IMG/VR virus record: IMGVR_UViG_3300017713_000036
Span: 1 to 33,061 of that record
Strand: one strand, 5' to 3'
DNA: 33,061 nt
From: a virus
Shown here: one piece after another, positions 4,173-33,061 of the stretch
Layout of the letters: every line of letters begins with the position of its first letter
Position numbering within the stretch: position 1 is the first letter of the stretch
Translations under genes and position numbers: made by a program
The notes under the pieces: model-generated
Seen by the model: the letters and a program-made list of their open reading frames with translations, nothing else
Told to the model about the DNA's origin: nothing
Database searches by the model: none

Positions 4173-5998
4173 TAGTTAGTAACCCCAGGCTCTACGTCTA
4201 CGATACGAGAGAATGATCTACTACCATCAAACTCCAAGACATCATTTCTTAGAGGAGTCAGGGCACTCTGGTTGGCAGGAGTTACAGACACCTTAATGAA
4301 CTGATCGGAACCAACAAAGTTGTCGATACGCAAACCAACGATTCTGACGGTATCCCCATCGTAGTCTCCTACATTATCTACAATGACTGCGCGTTCATCT
4401 TGATCAAATACCTCTAGTTTATTCGTTCCGAGTTTATTTCTTAACACACAGGTTTTATTTTGCAATGTAAAAGCGGTAGATGTAATCACATGGTTTACAT
4501 CGTCAGGGATTGCAATAATTGTCGCGTATCTCATTACATGATCTTGTGCTAGTGTCAATGTCGGAGTAAACCGTCTCTGCATACGCACTGTGGCTCGGGA
4601 CGATAGAATCGCAGGACTAACATCATCAATCAAAGTCAATAGATTTGATCGTCGGAATGACTGATTAAAGTTACCCGTATTCGTATCAAAATAATCAAAC
4701 ACTGCTTGAGTTACATTGTCTTGAATCGTGTTGCGAGACAGAGTTGTGAGGTTCTGATTGAACTGGAAAAATAACTCGGTCTCAACAAAGGTCTTGACTG
4801 GATCATCAAACTGTACATTAAATGATGCGACAGATAACTGTGCGGCAAGATCAATGATAGAGTCCTTTGTTACCTGTATCGTAGTGTCATCAACATCGGA
4901 GTTGAATAGTATTGATATGAAGACGGAACCAAAGACTGGGTTGATCGCTTCTTCACCACCAAAGGATGTGATGTCCTTGATCAGTGTTGAGAAGTTTTGT
5001 AGTACCAGTGCGGTATAGTCTACGGCTGTTACCATTCGGTTTTGAGATGCATACTGGAAGGGAGCATTCTGACGAATAGATTCTATAGATTCCTTTTCAC
5101 CACCACCAACAGCATTGGCGACAGTAGTTACTGATGCGTTGTACGATACACCAGCAACAGTGATTGGACTCTGAGGTTCAAATGTCTTGGCAGTATCACC
5201 AGCACTACCACCTGATGCCAGATAGGTGACCGTAACCTTGCTACCAGCGGCTGGTGAACGACCCAATGTTGTACCATTACCAAAGGTCAGTTCAAAGAAT
5301 CCATTAGGAGATTCTTTCAATATGAATAGAGTAGAGTTAGCATTGATTGTCGTAGCGGACAATAGGTTGGTATATGTAGTAAACTGAGAAGAAGATGGTG
5401 ACTCATATACACGCACAACCGCAGTAGAAATATCCATCTCAGTATCGGGTATGATATAGACTGGGTTCTCTTCTTGTTGGGTCACAAGGAAGGTTTTGAC
5501 TCGTTGAGTTCCCTCGTAGACCTTGATGTTACTTTCCCCAGAGGCGTCAGTAAATATATACAGACCTTCACCGTTATCTGTGGCAGTAAGGTCTTCTATG
5601 GTCTGGAACACATACTCCGTTTCATCGACAGTCGCATTGAACTTGAAACCATCATTTAATTGTACCGTGTTGGGACGATCTGTCACACCACTAAGATTAA
5701 TGGACATCTTAATGATTGCTTGAGAGGAAGTCTTTGAGTCTGGAATATATCCTATTCCCTCTGCCAAGGAGATGATAGAACTACGCAGTTGTGCAGTCCC
5801 AAGGAAAGATTCGTTCAAGGCAAAGTTGGCGGTCAAACCATTATAATGGGTATTGTACGCCAGAACATCTAGAATATTAGACAGTCCAGATGCCTCAAAG
5901 TTATAATCCTGAAACTCTTCTTTCTGAGCAAGAAAAGTCTTGAGGTTATTCTTAATCGCATCAAAGTCTAATGATGTGGATTTGATTGTTGTTGCCAT
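4172..5998 (-). CDS. 6: Baseplate wedge protein gp6
   Basis: A 608-residue homologue of T4 gp6 (about 660 residues), which forms the inner ring of the baseplate by dimerising between wedges. The N-terminus shows the family signature: SLDFDAIKNNLKTFLAQKEEF, then YNFEASGLSNILDVLAYNTHYN and ALNESFLGTAQLRSS. The middle contains the J-like core (GGGEKESIESIRQNAPF..ASQNRMVTAVDY at about residues 298-330), common to contractile injection baseplates. The C-terminal part is beta-rich. The gene is immediately downstream of gp25 and overlaps the gp7-like gene by one base, so the wedge proteins are made together from one late transcript. Confidence 0.9.
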   Translation of the reverse strand: MATTIKSTSLDFDAIKNNLKTFLAQKEEFQDYNFEASGLSNILDVLAYNTHYNGLTANFALNESFLGTAQLRSSIISLAEGIGYIPDSKTSSQAIIKMSINLSGVTDRPNTVQLNDGFKFNATVDETEYVFQTIEDLTATDNGEGLYIFTDASGESNIKVYEGTQRVKTFLVTQQEENPVYIIPDTEMDISTAVVRVYESPSSSQFTTYTNLLSATTINANSTLFILKESPNGFFELTFGNGTTLGRSPAAGSKVTVTYLASGGSAGDTAKTFEPQSPITVAGVSYNASVTTVANAVGGGEKESIESIRQNAPFQYASQNRMVTAVDYTALVLQNFSTLIKDITSFGGEEAINPVFGSVFISILFNSDVDDTTIQVTKDSIIDLAAQLSVASFNVQFDDPVKTFVETELFFQFNQNLTTLSRNTIQDNVTQAVFDYFDTNTGNFNQSFRRSNLLTLIDDVSPAILSSRATVRMQRRFTPTLTLAQDHVMRYATIIAIPDDVNHVITSTAFTLQNKTCVLRNKLGTNKLEVFDQDERAVIVDNVGDYDGDTVRIVGLRIDNFVGSDQFIKVSVTPANQSALTPLRNDVLEFDGSRSFSRIVDVEPGVTN

Positions 5999-24615: not shown

Positions 24616-24623
24616 TATAAATA
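24616..24623 (+). promoter_or_regulatory. Late promoter TATAAATA of the 24629-27234 block
   Basis: TATAAATA on the plus strand ends five bases before the ATG at 24629. By T4 spacing the transcript would start on that ATG; no Shine-Dalgarno site is present. Confidence 0.72.
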
Positions 24624-24628
24624 AACAC

Positions 24629-24895
24629 ATGACTAAAGAACTATTCGATTTCGGGTTTACCCTAGTAGACGAAGACGAACTGGAGGCAGTGCAGCAAGCA
24701 CAGTCCAAGGTTGCGTCCGTGTCCGACTCTGTGTCAGAAACCCAAGAAAAACTGGACAGTCTGTTCAATGCGATCCAACCATTGTTGAACAACCTGAAAC
24801 AAAATCCTCAGAAAGAGTATATCCTCTGGCCCAATCGACTTGAGAAGATTGAGCAGTTCGAGGACTATATACAGAATATCTACAAGGGTCAGTAA
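24629..24895 (+). CDS. Small conserved late protein, 88 aa
   Basis: An 88-residue acidic, helical protein. The start (FDFGFTLVDEDELEAVQQAQ) and the segment SLFNAIQPLLNNLKQNPQKE with YILWPNRLEKIEQFEDYIQN are a pattern I know from marine T4-like phages, where it is listed as conserved hypothetical. The central heptad pattern (about 18-50) suggests a coiled coil. As the first gene after a late promoter it is probably made late, so an assembly, scaffold or virion role is likely. It overlaps the following gene as TAATG. Confidence 0.75.
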   Translation: MTKELFDFGFTLVDEDELEAVQQAQSKVASVSDSVSETQEKLDSLFNAIQPLLNNLKQNPQKEYILWPNRLEKIEQFEDYIQNIYKGQ

Positions 24896-25704
24896 TGCTA
24901 CTATACAGATGTCACCCAATCAGTCAGAACCAGAACGCTATCGTAAACCTTAATAGAAAGGAAGAACTGTTCAAGGCTGTCTCGGAAGCACTTCCCAAGT
25001 ATAAAGGGAAGACATTGCATCCGAATGATCATATTGGGTTGGTAACTGACGCATCTGTCCTTTCAGGATTGTTGACTCTATCTGGATACAAAAATGTCCT
25101 TGTGGTGACTTCGTTTGCGGATAAAGATTATGATACCGTAGTTAAGGGTCACCAAGCACACAAGAGTGCGGGAGATCATCTGGTACCAATAGTCCATAAG
25201 GCAGCGGGAACCATGATGAACATGTATGTAACCAAGGTAAAGTCTGGTGATTGGTTCACCCCATTCTATGAGTCATATGGTGTCAAGACATTAGATGTTG
25301 ATTCACCTTTTGCACTAGATAGTACATTCAAAATTAAACCTCCGGCTGATGTCAAGTTTGATGCTGTTGTTCTACTGGGTTGTGATGCATACTCAAAAGG
25401 GAAGTTTAACGTAAAGGATATCAAGGAAACATTTACCAGATATTGCACACCAGAGTTTGATCTTATTGATGTGTATCGTCATGAGAACGACACAAGAAGT
25501 ATCGTGGGCAGTACTCCGAAACAAAATACAGTTATTGCCCAGACAATGTTTCAGGCAGTCAACACTCCGAAGAAACTTATAGATAAGACCAATGGCGCTT
25601 TTGTTAATCGTGAACTTGAGATGCCCAATATGAGAAGTGTGATCTTATACAGTAGACTTGCATCCAACATCATCAATGTTGATAAATGGTATAAGGTTTA
25701 CTAA
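24895..25704 (+). CDS. Unknown protein, paralogue A of a tandem pair
   Basis: A 269-residue protein I do not recognise. It shares a core with the next gene: residues 149-195 (PPADVKFDAVVLLG, then FNVKDIKETFTRYCTPEFDL and IDVYR) match residues 161-208 of paralogue B, with 16 of 25 identical over the last part; HIGLV..LSGLLTLSGYKNVLVVTSF at 46-74 also aligns. Both end in YKVY. Alternating strands and helices suggest an alpha/beta Rossmann-like fold, vaguely like methyltransferases or nucleotide hydrolases, but the usual glycine-rich loop is missing. No signal or membrane segment. Its place in a late block points to a virion or assembly-related job. Confidence 0.7.
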   Translation: MLLYRCHPISQNQNAIVNLNRKEELFKAVSEALPKYKGKTLHPNDHIGLVTDASVLSGLLTLSGYKNVLVVTSFADKDYDTVVKGHQAHKSAGDHLVPIVHKAAGTMMNMYVTKVKSGDWFTPFYESYGVKTLDVDSPFALDSTFKIKPPADVKFDAVVLLGCDAYSKGKFNVKDIKETFTRYCTPEFDLIDVYRHENDTRSIVGSTPKQNTVIAQTMFQAVNTPKKLIDKTNGAFVNRELEMPNMRSVILYSRLASNIINVDKWYKVY

Positions 25705-26549
25705 TGTACGATACAATGTATAACATAGTCACTGGAGTGAACGACGATAGAAGCTATCGGGTCTCACTGATCCCAGAATTGAACGATTATAAATTCAGGA
25801 ATCTAGTACGAGAAAGAATCAAGGGATACACATCTACCCTGTTGACAGACAAGATTCTTGGTACAGAACGACATATTCCACAGTCACTATTACTTAACAA
25901 CATTCTGAGTGCGAAACAGTACCAGAATGTTCTGTTCGTTCCTTCGTTTAGAAACACTCTATATCCTAGAATGATGGACGAATCCTACATTCTAAATGTA
26001 CCTAATATAAATTATCATATGATGCCGTGCACTAACAAGTACTACGAACTGCCATCAAATATGTATGTTGCATATCCAGAAGGTCACACAAGTGTGTACC
26101 ACGATTTGATGGACGGATTTGGTGTAACTTTTTGCAGGTCTAATGGAATGTATACGATGGGAGACTCAGCATATGAAGTGTCACCACCCGAAGGTGTAAA
26201 GTTTGACTGCGTCTTTCTGGCAGGACATCCCATGCCATCGGAAGACATATATTTTAATGCCGAAGACATTAAGAATGACTTCGCTTCATACTGCACACCA
26301 GACTTTGATCTACATGATGTGCGTAGGCGTTCATTATATAAAGAAGAATATCTGAGAGGAAATCCTCATCTCAACAATGTTGAAGCGCCACCTCGACTAG
26401 TGGGCGAGACAAAGGACATGACTGATGTGTTTACGTATGTATTAGAAAATTCATACCGACCCGATTTTCACGGTGACGAACTCCTGACCGACATGTTTAC
26501 TGGATATAAAATGTTACCCCACTTCCAAAAATCATACAAGGTATATTAA
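25704..26549 (+). CDS. Unknown protein, paralogue B of a tandem pair
   Basis: A 281-residue protein similar to its upstream neighbour; the shared block is PPEGVKFDCVFLAG with FNAEDIKNDFASYCTPDFDL at 161-203, and AKQYQNVLFVPSF at 70-82. It differs in an extra N-terminal segment (about 1-45, VTGVNDDRSYRVSLIPELND) and in the loop after the strand at 168-175. Cys197 in YCTP, conserved in A (Cys184), could be functional. The start codon forms TAATG with the stop of paralogue A, so the two are translated together and may form a heteromer. Function unknown. Confidence 0.7.
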   Translation: MYDTMYNIVTGVNDDRSYRVSLIPELNDYKFRNLVRERIKGYTSTLLTDKILGTERHIPQSLLLNNILSAKQYQNVLFVPSFRNTLYPRMMDESYILNVPNINYHMMPCTNKYYELPSNMYVAYPEGHTSVYHDLMDGFGVTFCRSNGMYTMGDSAYEVSPPEGVKFDCVFLAGHPMPSEDIYFNAEDIKNDFASYCTPDFDLHDVRRRSLYKEEYLRGNPHLNNVEAPPRLVGETKDMTDVFTYVLENSYRPDFHGDELLTDMFTGYKMLPHFQKSYKVY

Positions 26550-26550
26550 A

Positions 26551-27234
26551 ATGATTAAGTTCAAGAAATTCATGGTCGAGGGTGTAGATGACCCCGCAAT
26601 CTTCAAGGCAGTATTCCTTGCGGGTGGGCCTGGATCTGGCAAATCTTTCATTGCTGGTAAGACGGGTCTTACTTCTCTTGGATTAAAATTAGTAAACTCA
26701 GATGATGCCTTTGAGCGAATGCTCAAGAAAGCAGGCATGGAGCCCACACCTAAAAACATGTTTTCTCCCAAGGGACAGGAGATTCGCCAAAAAGCGAAGA
26801 CTGTCACTGGCATGAGACAGAAAGGTTACATTGGTGGAAGGTTAGGTCTTGTCATCGATGGCACCGGCAAAGATTTCGGTAAGATTCAAAAGCAAGCCAC
26901 TGCTCTAAAGAAATTAGGGTACGATGTGGCTATGATCTTTGTTAACACTGACTTAGAGACTGCACAAAGACGCAATAAAATGCGGGCTCGTTCACTGCCT
27001 ACCGCTGCGGTAACTGGTATGTGGAAAGATGTGCAGAATAATCTCGGTAAGTTTCAGAACTTTTTTAACCGTGGCTCTGAAATGATCATTGTCGATAACT
27101 CAGAAGAATCTGATTCTGAAGGCGCAATCTTAGGTGCATATCGAAAAATGAGTGCATGGGTAAAGCGACCTCCCACTTCGCCTGCTGCAAAGCAATGGAT
27201 CAAGAAGGAAAGAGAAGCAAAGAGGAGAGATTAA
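26551..27234 (+). CDS. P-loop kinase (zeta-toxin/polynucleotide-kinase-like)
   Basis: A 227-residue P-loop protein. Walker A is GGPGSGKS at 25-32. VNSDDAF at 48-54 and VIDGTGKD at 101-108 match the Asp-containing motifs of zeta-toxin and T4 Pnk-type kinases, and the arginines in TDLETAQRRNKMRARSLP (about 133-150) could form the lid. The C-terminus is basic (KQWIKKEREAKRRD). The substrate is unknown; the fold allows phosphorylation of UDP-sugars, nucleotides or RNA ends. No antitoxin gene is visible. It follows the paralogue pair in the late block. Its stop shares a TTAA with the opposing gene. Confidence 0.75.
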   Translation: MIKFKKFMVEGVDDPAIFKAVFLAGGPGSGKSFIAGKTGLTSLGLKLVNSDDAFERMLKKAGMEPTPKNMFSPKGQEIRQKAKTVTGMRQKGYIGGRLGLVIDGTGKDFGKIQKQATALKKLGYDVAMIFVNTDLETAQRRNKMRARSLPTAAVTGMWKDVQNNLGKFQNFFNRGSEMIIVDNSEESDSEGAILGAYRKMSAWVKRPPTSPAAKQWIKKEREAKRRD

Positions 27235-27449: not shown

Positions 27450-27632
27450 TTACTCCTCTGCGTAAACGAATTGATTGTCATCATCAACAATTACAAGTTT
27501 CTGCCCGACACCACATACTTCATCACGGTAGTTAGAAAGTTCAACATCAGACACCATATTCAAATCAAACCCCTTGTCCATACGAACAAGTACATGATTC
27601 TCGCATCGTGCGAGATTTAATCCATCAATCAT
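27450..27632 (-). CDS. Hypothetical protein, 60 aa
   Basis: A 60-residue acidic protein (MIDGLNLARCENHVLVRMDK) with strand-rich ending (QKLVIVDDDNQFVYAEE). Two Cys (10 and 40) are far apart and show no zinc-binding pattern. The ATG overlaps the end of the preceding glycosyltransferase-like gene by eight bases, and AAGGTG lies upstream. No known family recognised. Confidence 0.55.
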   Translation of the reverse strand: MIDGLNLARCENHVLVRMDKGFDLNMVSDVELSNYRDEVCGVGQKLVIVDDDNQFVYAEE

Positions 27633-28275
27633 TATTTATCACCTTACCTTTATTATTTACCACTTTTATTTCGACATTATCTCCCACAGGAATCTTGATA
27701 TTCGGGTGAACATGATACAATACAAACTTAGTATCAGGAAACTCCTTGAACATCTCAACCCATATGGGTCTCCAGTTATCAGCAAGTCTAACTGTGTTTG
27801 CTGTGCCACGATCACTTTCCAACAATAGGTCAGTGAAACTATCAAGATTCATATCAAAGATACTATCGAATCCATATATATGTACTTCATCAGCCTGCAT
27901 TTTATTACACGCATAATGGACTGCCATATGACCGCAATTAAAGTTAGTTGCAGCATATCTAACATCACCGTTCACCGCCGCATACTTGGGCACATGTCCA
28001 TAGAATCCTTTGATTAGATGTGAGTACTTCATATAGAAAGTTCCAGAATTTTCCATCCAAATCTTTGGTCTAGTACCCAGAACCCAATCATACATATCCA
28101 ATTGAATATGTCCTTCCTGTAGTGCCTTCATCATCTTGAAGTCTACCATACAGGTTGCCCACACCTCTTGCCTTGGAATAGCAAAGGGTGGCATGTTACA
28201 TACCAATAGTTTTCCAGGCGTACCCCGTTGGAAAAGTCCAGCGTTATCACCATTACCCAGAACATTCACTCTCAT
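27625..28275 (-). CDS. Putative glycosyltransferase (GT29/DUF115-like)
   Basis: A 216-residue alpha/beta protein that starts with a Rossmann-type strand and loop (MRVNVLGNGDNAGLF), followed by LLVCNMPPF and VWATCMVDFKMMKALQEG. Near residue 115 comes FNCGHMAVHYACNKMQADEV and HIYGFDSIFD, the pattern of GT29/42-like sialyltransferase folds and of DUF115, where a GNG loop binds the nucleotide sugar and a GFD-type motif follows a conserved strand. The C-terminus has a VLYHVHPN segment. The catalytic residues cannot be fixed. Position in the glycosylation cassette supports the call. Confidence 0.45.
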   Translation of the reverse strand: MRVNVLGNGDNAGLFQRGTPGKLLVCNMPPFAIPRQEVWATCMVDFKMMKALQEGHIQLDMYDWVLGTRPKIWMENSGTFYMKYSHLIKGFYGHVPKYAAVNGDVRYAATNFNCGHMAVHYACNKMQADEVHIYGFDSIFDMNLDSFTDLLLESDRGTANTVRLADNWRPIWVEMFKEFPDTKFVLYHVHPNIKIPVGDNVEIKVVNNKGKVINND

Positions 28276-28682: not shown

Positions 28683-28872
28683 TTAAGTACCTTATCACTT
28701 CAAGTTTATCTTCGGCTTCTGCGATTTTAGCAATCTCCTTTTCAATAGTTTCCACTATATCCGAATGTTCTCCGATACCGGCGGCATTCTGAATATAGAC
28801 TTGTATATTCGCCTTTGCCACCGCAACCTCACCTTCAAGTTTCTTTTCAAGAGCTTCTATTAAAAAATTCAT
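28675..28872 (-). CDS. Small conserved helical protein, 65 aa
   Basis: A 65-residue, Lys/Glu-rich helical protein (FLIEALEKKLEGEVAVAKAN, then IQVYIQNAAGIGEHSDIVET, IEKEIAKIAEAEDKLEVI). This exact type of sequence, with the AAGIGEH turn between two helices, recurs in marine T4-like phages as a conserved hypothetical. It likely folds as a helical hairpin or coiled coil. It overlaps both neighbours by a few bases. Function unknown. Confidence 0.7.
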   Translation of the reverse strand: MNFLIEALEKKLEGEVAVAKANIQVYIQNAAGIGEHSDIVETIEKEIAKIAEAEDKLEVIRYLNV

Positions 28873-29528
28873 ATCATTTGTTCCCGTATTATTTCTTTAC
28901 CCTTCGCCCCAGTGTGATGTATAATCTTAGGATTTTTTACATCGACACCATCTATGTAGTCTAATCTTAACGTATTGTATGTATGTGGTAGAGGATTGAT
29001 GCATGTCAACTTTTTCAACTCATCACCACCCATCATCAAATATAGTACTTCTTGATCACCTTGAACTGGATCTTGAATACATTGGTCTGCCCACGCTAGT
29101 AGTATGTTTGGAGTTCCTTCTACCAAGACCACCCCTGAGTTATACCAATCACCCAACTCGTTCCTGCGACTAGACCACGGCCTGTCCTTGATCATACCCA
29201 ATCTACCCTGTTCAGACAGATTAAATATCCCTGAGATGTCAGATGTTACCTCACAGTCAGTATCCATCCAACATGTCTTACTCACACCGTTTAGTCTAGT
29301 CGCATCAATAATCGCACGGGGTTTCTTAAACCACCCTCTTGCATTACTCTTGATTTCAATCACTAGATCGAAGTTGTTCTGAGCAAACTCAAGTCCCTCA
29401 TTACTCATACCAAAGTCAGCGCACACTATGGGAGTATCATTGTGGTTCTTGTACTTGTTTATGAACCAAGATAACTGCCACTCAGTGTTGATGTCACACC
29501 CTGTTAAAAATATGTTCAAATTAGACAT
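28869..29528 (-). CDS. GT8-like glycosyltransferase
   Basis: A 219-residue GT-A enzyme. Residues 88-91 form the metal-binding DXD motif (MDTD, Asp89 and Asp91), preceded by a KKPRAIIDATRL helix typical of GT8-type folds. Later come WYNSGVVLVEG, a GDQEVLY motif and IIHHTGAKGK, the latter being a C-terminal histidine position that completes the metal site in this family. It should transfer a sugar from a nucleotide sugar with retention. The donor and acceptor are unknown. It is coupled to its neighbours with four- and eight-base overlaps. Confidence 0.78.
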   Translation of the reverse strand: MSNLNIFLTGCDINTEWQLSWFINKYKNHNDTPIVCADFGMSNEGLEFAQNNFDLVIEIKSNARGWFKKPRAIIDATRLNGVSKTCWMDTDCEVTSDISGIFNLSEQGRLGMIKDRPWSSRRNELGDWYNSGVVLVEGTPNILLAWADQCIQDPVQGDQEVLYLMMGGDELKKLTCINPLPHTYNTLRLDYIDGVDVKNPKIIHHTGAKGKEIIREQMI

Positions 29529-30168
29529 TAATTATTTCATACTTATCGTCGTAGTTGTGTTTTGCAAGACAACCACGTTCTACTTGTATTGTAGTAAAAC
29601 TATCGTCAGCGTGAGCGACAAAAGGATAGTGTTCCTGTAACCAAGGGAACACGCCAAGATGCATATAAACATCAGTCGGTTTTGCGTATGTAGGGGCATT
29701 CTCTACCAATAGTCTTGCACCCGCCGGAGTCACCATGTACGCATGAGCGCCCGGAAAATAACTTTTGGTTGTCAAACGGTTCACCCCAATTTGTTGAGGA
29801 GTGTTCCATTTACCATAGGATGGCGCACCAATATTCATCACATAACTGAAAGGTGTTGTAGGAATAGGAGTATCCAAGACAGCATCATGCTCAAAGATAG
29901 CAAAGGGTTCTGTTCCAGATCCACACCGTTTCCACAGAGTGTGGTGTGAGAGGAATGCGGCCATGCAGTTCAGGTTGCGGGAGTATACTTCATCAAACCG
30001 TTCAGGATCAATACCCTCCTTCTCAAGCATCGATACGGGATCGTCCTTGGGTGTGATAGCATTGAACATTTTGATATCAACGCCATGACGATCACCACTC
30101 CAGATACATCGTTCTGCGGATCTTAATGATTTCTCATTATCTGCTATACCAATTACGAACGCTTTCAT
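29521..30168 (-). CDS. GT25-family glycosyltransferase, copy 1
   Basis: A 215-residue protein of the GT25 family (LPS biosynthesis type galactosyltransferases). Signature elements are the N-terminal VIGIADNEKSLRSAERCIWS, CMAAFLSHHTLWKRC at about 68-82, FAIFEHDAVL with the Glu-His-Asp metal site (about 89-98), and GAHAYMVTPAGARLLVENAP with PTDVYMHL. It resembles the 239-residue protein encoded upstream. A likely role is modifying a host surface or phage sugar; the acceptor is not known. No signal peptide. Confidence 0.82.
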   Translation of the reverse strand: MKAFVIGIADNEKSLRSAERCIWSGDRHGVDIKMFNAITPKDDPVSMLEKEGIDPERFDEVYSRNLNCMAAFLSHHTLWKRCGSGTEPFAIFEHDAVLDTPIPTTPFSYVMNIGAPSYGKWNTPQQIGVNRLTTKSYFPGAHAYMVTPAGARLLVENAPTYAKPTDVYMHLGVFPWLQEHYPFVAHADDSFTTIQVERGCLAKHNYDDKYEIINV

Positions 30169-30365
30169 ACTAAAAAGTTTATCTGACTTGAGTTGGTTGA
30201 GGTAGTAAGTTTCCCGTTATAATCATATGTAGTCACAATATAAGTCGTTTGCTGGATCTTGTGTTGTCCATCAGGAGCACGGTTTACTCGTTCAACTGTA
30301 TATGTCTGATCCGACATTCGGGGTAGATATGATACCGGAGGTATTGCGTTATTATTTTCTATCAT
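30165..30365 (-). CDS. Hypothetical protein, 66 aa
   Basis: A 66-residue protein from the ATG at 30365 (MIENNNAIPPVSYLPRMSDQ), whose ATG overlaps the stop of the upstream GT25 gene as ATGA. An earlier in-frame start would run 66 bases inside that gene and is rejected. The sequence is Thr/Gln/Asn-rich (QQTTYIVTTYDYNGKLTTST) and likely beta-structured, possibly fibre-like. Unknown function. It ends with a four-base overlap on the next GT25 gene. Confidence 0.5.
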   Translation of the reverse strand: MIENNNAIPPVSYLPRMSDQTYTVERVNRAPDGQHKIQQTTYIVTTYDYNGKLTTSTNSSQINFLV

Positions 30366-31081
30366 TTCGTTGTGGTTGATTTCAACCCTCTTTGTATGGT
30401 GGTGTAATATGGATAAACTACTCGTAACCAAGGAAACAGTTGTTTACACATCAACGCATCGTTTGGCCACATTCCAATCTCTTCCACTTTATTTAGTAAT
30501 TTCTTTGCTGCCTTTGGTGATATCAGATATGCAGAGTTACCTGCCAATCCTTGGGGAACCTCCGAAGTATCAACATTTGGTACAGATTGAACTCCCATTT
30601 GGGAACTCACCGCATTATGAAATATATCTGATCTTCGAGTTGCACCCCGTGGATCATTGAGGCCTATTATACCACCCTTCCACTGTTCTGTCAAGTCACT
30701 TGTCGCAAACTTTCTAGTGAATAGTGCATCATGTTCTAGGACAACAATTGGATCACTACCTTCAGCACACATCTTCCAACACCTCATGTGGGAGATCATA
30801 CATGCTACACGGTTGGCGTGATTCTTGGTTTCATAATGACGAAGATATAATCCCGTTTTGAAATCAAGACCATCATCTTCTGGTTTGACTGGATATGTCC
30901 ACTTTGCCCCAGACATCTCTAGACACTTCAGACCCTCGTCAATAGTGGATGGGGTTGTGGCAGGTAGTATGATAGGTTCTAGTTCAGACTCAGTTTTCTT
31001 TATAGACTCAATGACCAACCGTGTGGCCACGGTTGCCTCATGATTATTTACTAGACTGATTATGAAGGCTTTCGTCAACAT
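30362..31081 (-). CDS. GT25-family glycosyltransferase, copy 2
   Basis: A 239-residue second GT25-type enzyme. It shows KAFIISLVNNHEATVATRLV at the start, ANRVACMISHMRCWKMC (about 88-104), VVLEHDALF with the Glu-His-Asp site, GNSAYLISPKAAKKLLNKVE and WPNDALM, in the same order as the protein encoded at 29521. Similar but not close, so the two probably act on different sugars or sites. A perfect sigma70-type promoter is embedded in its coding sequence. The first 38 bases overlap the end of the gene before it. Confidence 0.82.
   Translation of the reverse strand: MLTKAFIISLVNNHEATVATRLVIESIKKTESELEPIILPATTPSTIDEGLKCLEMSGAKWTYPVKPEDDGLDFKTGLYLRHYETKNHANRVACMISHMRCWKMCAEGSDPIVVLEHDALFTRKFATSDLTEQWKGGIIGLNDPRGATRRSDIFHNAVSSQMGVQSVPNVDTSEVPQGLAGNSAYLISPKAAKKLLNKVEEIGMWPNDALMCKQLFPWLRVVYPYYTTIQRGLKSTTTK
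30666..30694 (-). promoter_or_regulatory. Intragenic consensus sigma70-type promoter
   Basis: Minus strand: TTGACA at 30694-30689, a 17-base spacer and TATAAT at 30671-30666, inside the GT25 gene (codons for Leu-Thr-Glu ... Gly-Ile-Ile-Gly). It could drive the downstream sugar genes. No A-tract lies ahead, unlike the other promoters. Confidence 0.6.
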
Positions 31082-31877
31082 CTTTTACATATTCCCAACG
31101 GGCAGATAGATAACAACCACCATGATAACTCTTATGATAATATCCAAAGGGTTCAGATAGTATTTGATACCACCCCTCTTCTGCGCTTTTTAGTTCTTTG
31201 TTCTTATATAGAGAATCCACTAAATCGATGTCCCAGCAATCTCTGGGGTGGATGATCAGGGCATCGTTGATGTAGTAGGTGGTTTCCTTACCCATCGGTT
31301 TTAGTTCATTGAACTTGTGGGTGCCATAGTAGTTCATACAGTTGAATCCGATAGGCATATCTTTATCGTATGACTCTTGGATCAGTTCTCCCCACGGAAT
31401 CTGATCAGACACAACAACATCAAAACGACTACGCACGATCATATCATACTCATCAGGTATTGATTTCATCATCTCGTTGTGAATCAAAAGTTGTTTGTGC
31501 CAGTTCGCACATGCGTGTGCGTGTACCAGTTGACTGTTGGTATAGATGGTATCATCCAGTCCAACCGCATACCGCATCTTAGATACCCTCTCCCTCTCCA
31601 ACATATGAGGAAAAATATCTCGTCGTAACTCACTAGCAGAATCGGGATAGGCCTCAGTATCAAAGACAGGATGATACTCATTCTTAGGTTCATCAAAGTA
31701 GAAGTCGGGTGAGAACCCAACCTGTTTCATGTGCACCTCACCATAGAGACCATATATCTGGTTACTCCACGTTCCGGTATAGACTTTGTCGTGAGGGACA
31801 TGTTGCTTGGTTCTTTCTATCCACTTAGGGTCACAGTGTTGATTCCACCTACCGGATAAACATAATGCAGTCTTCAT
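31044..31877 (-). CDS. Predicted glycosyltransferase, 277 aa
   Basis: A 277-residue protein that begins MKTALCLSGRWNQHCDPKWI and has DEYDMIVRSRFDVVVSDQIP near residues 142-161, an RSRFD motif common to a group of GT-A-like transferases encoded by marine phages and bacteria for surface sugars. Later YINDALIIHPRDCWDIDLVD and GGCYLSARWEYV add aromatic and acidic residues. I cannot name the sugar, and a classic DXD is replaced by RFD. Its context between GT25 and a nucleotidyltransferase supports the call. It overlaps the next gene by 38 bases. Confidence 0.55.
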   Translation of the reverse strand: MKTALCLSGRWNQHCDPKWIERTKQHVPHDKVYTGTWSNQIYGLYGEVHMKQVGFSPDFYFDEPKNEYHPVFDTEAYPDSASELRRDIFPHMLERERVSKMRYAVGLDDTIYTNSQLVHAHACANWHKQLLIHNEMMKSIPDEYDMIVRSRFDVVVSDQIPWGELIQESYDKDMPIGFNCMNYYGTHKFNELKPMGKETTYYINDALIIHPRDCWDIDLVDSLYKNKELKSAEEGWYQILSEPFGYYHKSYHGGCYLSARWEYVKDVDESLHNQSSK

Positions 31878-31878
31878 A

Positions 31879-33061
31879 CTATCTAATGGAGAATAGGTAA
31901 CTTTCCAGATCTTCAGGAGTACCCAGACCAGCCATACCGTCTGCCTCGTAGGATAGGATCTTCTTACCGCCTAGGATTGCCTGATTGAATACAGGACAGA
32001 CATAGTACTCACCGTTGACCTTCTTCCGAGATGCAATCATATCTTTTGTATATTCAACGTAATCTTCACCACGTTTCCAGTAGTAGAATCCCACTGTTGC
32101 ATTATCACTGATAGGGTTCTTCTCTGCCACCTCAGTAACCAAACCTTCAGGACTCACCTTTGCATACGACCACTTAGGATGTGTTGCTTTGAAAGTAACA
32201 ATACCACCATCCGCATCATGTTCATTCATCTTGTACATGAAGTCTAGTGAACTCCAATCTACATGTTGATCTGAGTTAGCAATGAATAACGGGTTCTTGT
32301 TGTCGATGTATTCCTCTGCGAGTAGAGTCGTACATGCAGCACCCTCTGTCACACCATCAACCTCTACTATCTTACAGTTTGGTGCGATCAGATTTAACAT
32401 GGTGTCTAGGTTATACTTCTCACGATGATCTTTCTGTACCACGAAGATATAGTTGGCCTCCATACCAATGTTATCAACCACATGTTGGATCATCGGTTTA
32501 CCATCAACATCTATCAGAGGTTTTGGGAAAGTGTATCCAGCATCAGCAAACCGACTACCCGCACCCGCCATGGGTATCAATACATTCAGTTTCTCATCTT
32601 TCCACACAGGAGTAATAATTTTCTCTGACTTGATCTTATTAATCAAGTATATATCGACCTCTTCAGGAGATGATACCCTAATAACATTCGCACCGGACAA
32701 ATACGCAGACTCAAGTCCAGCTGGTGAGTCTTCTACGATCACCGTCTCTTCAGGTAGAACTCCAACCTCGGTCATTGCTTTCCAGTAGATCTCTGGGTGG
32801 GGTTTAGGATTCGACACATCACTACTAGTCAATCTCACACTTAGATACGGAGACAATAACATCTGATCTAATATATTATCAACGGTTTTTTCAATGGCAT
32901 TTGAGCACACACCAATCGCATATCCCTCTTGCCGTAACTGTTCAAACAGGTCTAGGATGTCATGATTACGCGCAACTGTGCGTAGTGCCATAAAGGTATA
33001 TTTTTGTTTTGAATTGAAGATTCTGTCTTGAAAGTCATCTGATACGTTCATCATATCTAAC
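31879..33061 (-). CDS. HAD phosphatase-nucleotidyltransferase fusion (N-terminus outside window)
   Basis: A two-domain protein of which 391 residues from the Met at 33054 plus two further upstream codons are visible; the frame is open to the right edge. The first ~145 residues are a HAD-superfamily phosphatase with motif II (GVCSNA), motif III (NPKPHPEIY) and motif IV (VEDSPAGLESA). Motif I (DxDGT-type), with the nucleophile, is absent, so the true start lies outside. Residues 155-390 form a sugar-nucleotidyltransferase: NVLIPMAGAGSRFADAGYTF, PKPLIDVDGKPMIQHV, and FIANSDQH with the metal-binding Asp. Such fusions make activated sugars such as CDP- or GDP-derivatives. It likely feeds the downstream transferases. 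Confidence 0.82.
   Translation of the reverse strand, partial: LDMMNVSDDFQDRIFNSKQKYTFMALRTVARNHDILDLFEQLRQEGYAIGVCSNAIEKTVDNILDQMLLSPYLSVRLTSSDVSNPKPHPEIYWKAMTEVGVLPEETVIVEDSPAGLESAYLSGANVIRVSSPEEVDIYLINKIKSEKIITPVWKDEKLNVLIPMAGAGSRFADAGYTFPKPLIDVDGKPMIQHVVDNIGMEANYIFVVQKDHREKYNLDTMLNLIAPNCKIVEVDGVTEGAACTTLLAEEYIDNKNPLFIANSDQHVDWSSLDFMYKMNEHDADGGIVTFKATHPKWSYAKVSPEGLVTEVAEKNPISDNATVGFYYWKRGEDYVEYTKDMIASRKKVNGEYYVCPVFNQAILGGKKILSYEADGMAGLGTPEDLESYLFSIR

Follow-up and report, generated by a model that had tools for sequence, protein, structure and literature searches.

Paired proteins with a predicted methyltransferase-like fold behind a T4-type late promoter in marine phages

We found that two adjacent, paralogous genes of a marine virus, A and B, belong to a previously unnamed family of late phage proteins that is coherent, widespread, and unannotated, and that a conserved T4-type late promoter precedes the compact operon in which they lie, p88-A-B-kinase. 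The DNA analyzed, called the window below, is a stretch of 33,061 nucleotides (positions 1 to 33,061 of IMG/VR record IMGVR_UViG_3300017713_000036) and comes from a T4-like phage genome. The reading that we favor, with a probability of roughly 0.4, is that A and B would form a late-acting, transferase-like heteromer, with S, the type that other phages carry in single copy, as its counterpart. The operon occupies a short plus-strand island (24616-27234) inside a block of mainly minus-strand genes. From a reading of the open reading frames of the window and a match to the annotated gene order in phage C48C1, we label genes of the window as gp32-like, baseplate-like, and gp33-like. The features of the operon are as follows.

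24616..24623, plus strand: T4-type late promoter TATAAATA, exact octamer, 13 nt before p88
24629..24895, plus strand: p88, 88 amino acids (aa), with an LFDFGFT N terminus, a coiled-coil-like middle, and an EKEYILWPNR..KIEQFE C-terminal part
24895..25704, plus strand: protein A, 269 aa, predicted class I methyltransferase-like fold
25357..25380, plus strand: A residues 155-162, FDAVVLLG, strand at the place of methyltransferase motif IV
25444..25446, plus strand: Cys184 of A, a conserved residue at which strand 184-193 of the model begins
25704..26549, plus strand: protein B, 281 aa, a paralogue of A with weaker conservation
26202..26225, plus strand: B residues 167-174, FDCVFLAG, counterpart of FDAVVLLG in A
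26292..26294, plus strand: B Cys197, counterpart of A Cys184
26551..27234, plus strand: P-loop kinase, Pfam AAA_33 and Zeta_toxin, with an N terminus like a capsid targeting sequence, MIKFKKFMVE/G

The original prediction, made from the window alone, had described A and B as tandem paralogues with a short shared core. Both reading frames were found with the lengths and TAATG overlap that it gave, and the p88-A junction is also TAATG. A count by eye agrees with its 16 identities over 25 residues around KDIK..F..YCTP.FDL.DV, and both proteins do end in YKVY. We found that A and B are true paralogues, with a similarity that extends far past the YCTP core: BLASTP (E 2e-18) aligned 188 residues with 29% identity, and the Smith-Waterman score of the pair was 178, whereas 1,000 shuffles averaged 34 and never exceeded 66. 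Purifying selection acts on both genes, with dN/dS values against the nearest distinct relative (L009) of about 0.18 for A and about 0.10 for B. The slightly stronger constraint on B in this comparison argues that B is not simply decaying.

Searches of Pfam, PHROGs, and PDB sequences with A and B gave nothing significant, in agreement with the earlier statement that no family could be recognized. Among 50,697 annotated phage records, a relative was present only in phage C48C1 (Kyanoviridae), as the 283-aa S-type product WJE88026.1, annotated as a hypothetical protein; we found no mention of this phage in the papers searched. C48C1 has the same family, p88 neighbor, and late promoter as the window and differs by its single S copy. 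There was no match to the family in HTVC008M, Melnitz, or Rhizobium phage RHph_I1_18, and a search of bacterial and archaeal genomes, one per species (84,980), with two degenerate peptide patterns, which are less sensitive than a profile search, gave no relative. Scanning IMG/VR with a profile yielded 94 confirmed relatives, with 79 loci kept, all in T4-like phage contigs, and HMM searching with earlier scans added gave 94 distinct complete sequences, or 73 after thinning at 97%.

Three gene arrangements were seen in these phages: (i) p88-S, with one copy of about 283 aa and the kinase not adjoining; (ii) p88-A-B-kinase, the type of the window; and (iii) p88-A-kinase without B, in two loci (L058 and L059). 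In one further locus (L061), which retains p88 and the kinase but lacks B, the reading frame of the A-type gene (4886-5606) appears to be interrupted. The A-B junctions are TAATG or overlapping in most pair loci, and a C-terminal KVY/F is retained by most members, whatever their type. A tree of 71 sequences, which is unrooted and has long branches, resolved S and B clades and a third group made up of A and the B-less type, with high support and with longer branches for B than for A. An unrooted tree of the neighbor gene also divides the S phages from the pair phages. Being unrooted, these trees fit either direction of change, from S to A plus B or the reverse.

The constant partner of the family is p88, which the original prediction had not named. 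A p88 gene (84 to 90 aa) directly precedes the family gene in every nonredundant locus with enough upstream sequence, with the exceptions of L053 and L060, and these adjacent p88 homologues are 62 to 100% identical across the nonredundant loci (71% for C48C1). In the two exceptions (L053:4728-4991 and L060:3200-3463), an 87-aa PHROG 19805 protein, with function unassigned in that resource, is inserted between p88 and A. A distant p88 homologue also occurs without a family gene in Rhizobium phage RHph_I1_18 (L029:9980-10249), between the DNA polymerase and UvsX genes.

The late promoter that had been proposed was found at the position listed above, and it is a fixed part of this locus. Of 47 distinct marine p88 loci, 46 have the octamer TATAAATA 13 to 29 nt ahead of the p88 start, compared to an expected frequency of 0.008 per 60 nt; the exception (L091) is a row whose p88 start could not be placed. 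The plus strand of the whole window holds only two copies. This octamer is the published T4 late promoter consensus, for which the counterpart in cyanophage S-PM2 is NATAAATA (PMC2984593). Given its presence across the loci and its match to the T4 consensus, the p88/A/B module is, judged by its sequence, almost certainly expressed late.

The neighboring P-loop kinase noted in the original prediction is real (Pfam AAA_33, E 7e-10) but is not a fixed partner. A kinase 59 to 60% identical to it is located elsewhere in the genome of single-copy phages, and no kinase of this type was found in the C48C1 genome, so we dropped it as a functional partner of A and B. The N terminus shown above for the window reads MKSFKTFLDE/G or similar in S phages (L289-L292), and in two of four S-phage kinases TATAAATA is found 36 nt ahead of the measured point. 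This N terminus resembles a capsid targeting leader, and the kinase is possibly a packaged, injected protein. By eye, the starts of A (MLLYRCHPISQ) and B (MYDTMYNIVTG) have no F..F..E leader. A capsid targeting leader exists in the internal proteins of T4 (PMC3012670). The operon has in common with T4 late and internal-protein genes the TATAAATA promoter, along with a downstream kinase whose N terminus is like a capsid targeting sequence, but A, B, and p88, unlike T4 internal proteins, are without such a leader. To our knowledge, A, B, and p88 have no counterpart among T4 genes.

An alpha/beta pattern had been suspected in A and B, and AlphaFold2 models made with the family alignment resemble class I methyltransferases. 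The models cover A (pLDDT 89.9, pTM 0.90) and the S protein of L015 (pLDDT 83.7, pTM 0.87), which are about 20% identical; they share most of their alignment and so are not fully independent. On VIA re-alignment, both models placed RsmG/GidB, the 16S rRNA m7G527 methyltransferase (1xdz, 3g8b), first, with Z 9.1 for 1xdz in each case (183 residues, rmsd 4.3 for A; 197 residues, rmsd 4.2 for S) and RsmG matches at Z 9.1 and 8.7 for A. Essentially all rows shown for both models were AdoMet-fold proteins, and the alignments run from the first to the last residue (to 269 and 283), including the C-terminal strand, residues 266-268 in the A model. A Z of about 9 is modest, as the tool states a best Z of 7 to 8 for models without a clear relative. 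The best PDB rows in Foldseek were also methyltransferases, at low TM-scores of 0.2 to 0.4, with non-methyltransferase Rossmann proteins ranking lower, and fold searches of the viral BFVD gave weak matches only, mostly to methyltransferases or unnamed proteins and all below TM 0.55. By these matches, the predicted models appear to have a class I fold with its antiparallel C-terminal strand, and we consider it likely that A and S share this seven-strand methyltransferase fold; B should have the same fold, by homology.

Little of the sequence signature of these enzymes remains. In motif I, the loop after strand 1, A has VVTSFAD, B has FVPSFRN, and S has FVGHFND. None of the three contains GxGxG; the glycine motif that binds SAM is gone from A and B, and S retains a part of it, one glycine (VGH). 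While RsmG is the best structural match over the whole length, A and S are only 8 to 12% identical to it, its GxGPG motif is absent, and the family models have a long loop after strand 1. The conserved acid that ends strand 2 and contacts the ribose is also missing (...YVTKVK in A and ...VIPRPPE in S, at a position taken from the models and moderately certain). Other parts of the signature are present: FDAVVLLG in A resembles motif IV, D156 and G162 of A are invariant across the family, and there is a conserved D/N near the expected adenine site (D136 in A and N147 in B). None of the 13 family members scanned had a significant Pfam methyltransferase match, and profile-profile comparison with RsmG, Methyltransf_25, and short-chain dehydrogenases was null, with a methyltransferase-to-methyltransferase control that was also weak. 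With the usual signature mostly gone, we do not file the family as SAM methyltransferases; its members may function in a transferase-like way on a methyltransferase scaffold.

We also looked at conserved residues in the A model. The cysteine for which a catalytic role had been proposed (Cys184 in A and Cys197 in B) is conserved in 100% of S, 97% of A, and 83% of B sequences, but it opens strand 184-193. In class I methyltransferases, that strand edge points away from the active face. This placement makes a buried, structural role likelier, and we judge that the cysteine is probably structural and a catalytic role unlikely. Among A sequences, D52, S73, G93, D94, H95, H101, D136, D156, K177, D192, R195, R254, and N258 are 90 to 100% identical, and the invariant polar cluster consists of T51-D52-A53, S73, G93-D94-H95, H101, D136, D156, D192, R195, Y252-x-R254, and N258. 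Better candidates than Cys184 for the predicted active face are D52, D94, H95, H101, D136, D156, D192, R195, R254, and N258 of A. B keeps fewer of these conserved residues, and S has a different polar set of its own.

From the pairing of the genes, we infer that A and B would form a heteromer; S may form a homomer. The lower conservation of B, the fixed gene order, the coupled start and stop codons, and the occurrence of A alone in arrangement (iii) suggest A as the competent subunit, with B in a supporting role. Heteromers of a catalytic and an inactive paralogue are an established mode among seven-strand methyltransferases (PMC10908127). A, which retains the invariant polar cluster, may correspond in this respect to METTL3, and B, which would be a partner with eroded catalysis, to METTL14; those proteins are likewise paralogues with the seven-strand fold, of which one is conserved and the other eroded. 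The likeness would be in how the pair works and not in membership, as we saw no sequence relation of A and B to METTL3-METTL14, and it is the gene pairing that points to an A/B heteromer. The complex would be a transferase-like enzyme with a phage product as its substrate, acting late, in virion maturation, and p88 would be an assembly or recruiting partner. The absence of the glycine-rich SAM motif from A and B suggests that the cofactor would be bound in a modified way or would be one other than SAM.

The same loss of the SAM motif from A and B is consistent with a noncatalytic virion or assembly protein that reuses a methyltransferase-like fold, which we hold to be nearly as probable as the favored heteromer. 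In such a protein, p88, with its coiled-coil-like middle, and A/B would form a subcomplex, and the divergence of A from B would reflect two nonequivalent positions instead of one. The late promoter and compact late operon, the C-terminal KVY/F of most members of all types, and the small, late-type PHROG 19805 protein between p88 and A in two loci all fit this explanation, but the invariant polar residues on the predicted ligand face of A exceed the needs of a scaffold, and S retains a polar set of its own.

An ordinary SAM-dependent methyltransferase with a drifted motif I, in which, late in infection, A, B, or S would methylate DNA, RNA, or protein, appears unlikely: although SAM enzymes make up all of the best structural matches and S keeps its VGH glycine, the glycine loop and the acidic residue of strand 2 are missing from A and B, and neither the Pfam scan nor the profile comparison, with its weak control, gave a match. 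We regard as improbable a generic Rossmann-like fold, unrelated to methyltransferases and with a nucleotide- or sugar-handling role; the modest Z values, the low Foldseek TM-scores, and the Rossmann proteins lower in the list would agree with it, but two models of such divergent proteins both put RsmG first, end to end.

A more specific and rather doubtful extension of the favored transferase-like heteromer is that this is an undescribed late enzyme family in which a methyltransferase scaffold traded its SAM motif for another cofactor or reaction, duplication in one lineage gave an active A and a supporting B, and p88 is an obligate partner. In marine T4-like phages, p88 and the family make up an unannotated module whose late promoter is fixed and for which there are now a predicted fold and residues open to testing. 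Its single-copy and pair versions can naturally be compared to learn how a phage protein turns into a heteromer. Should A prove to be an enzyme, it would catalyze an undescribed modification step in virion maturation.

Beyond the operon, a conserved 216-aa protein (27625-28275, minus strand), with no match in Pfam and PHROG searches, faces it in most pair and single-copy phages. Farther along the minus strand (28869-33054) is a run that includes a 219-aa protein without a match in a Pfam scan and that, from the sequences, we take to resemble glycosyltransferases and a nucleotidyltransferase fused to an HAD-like domain.
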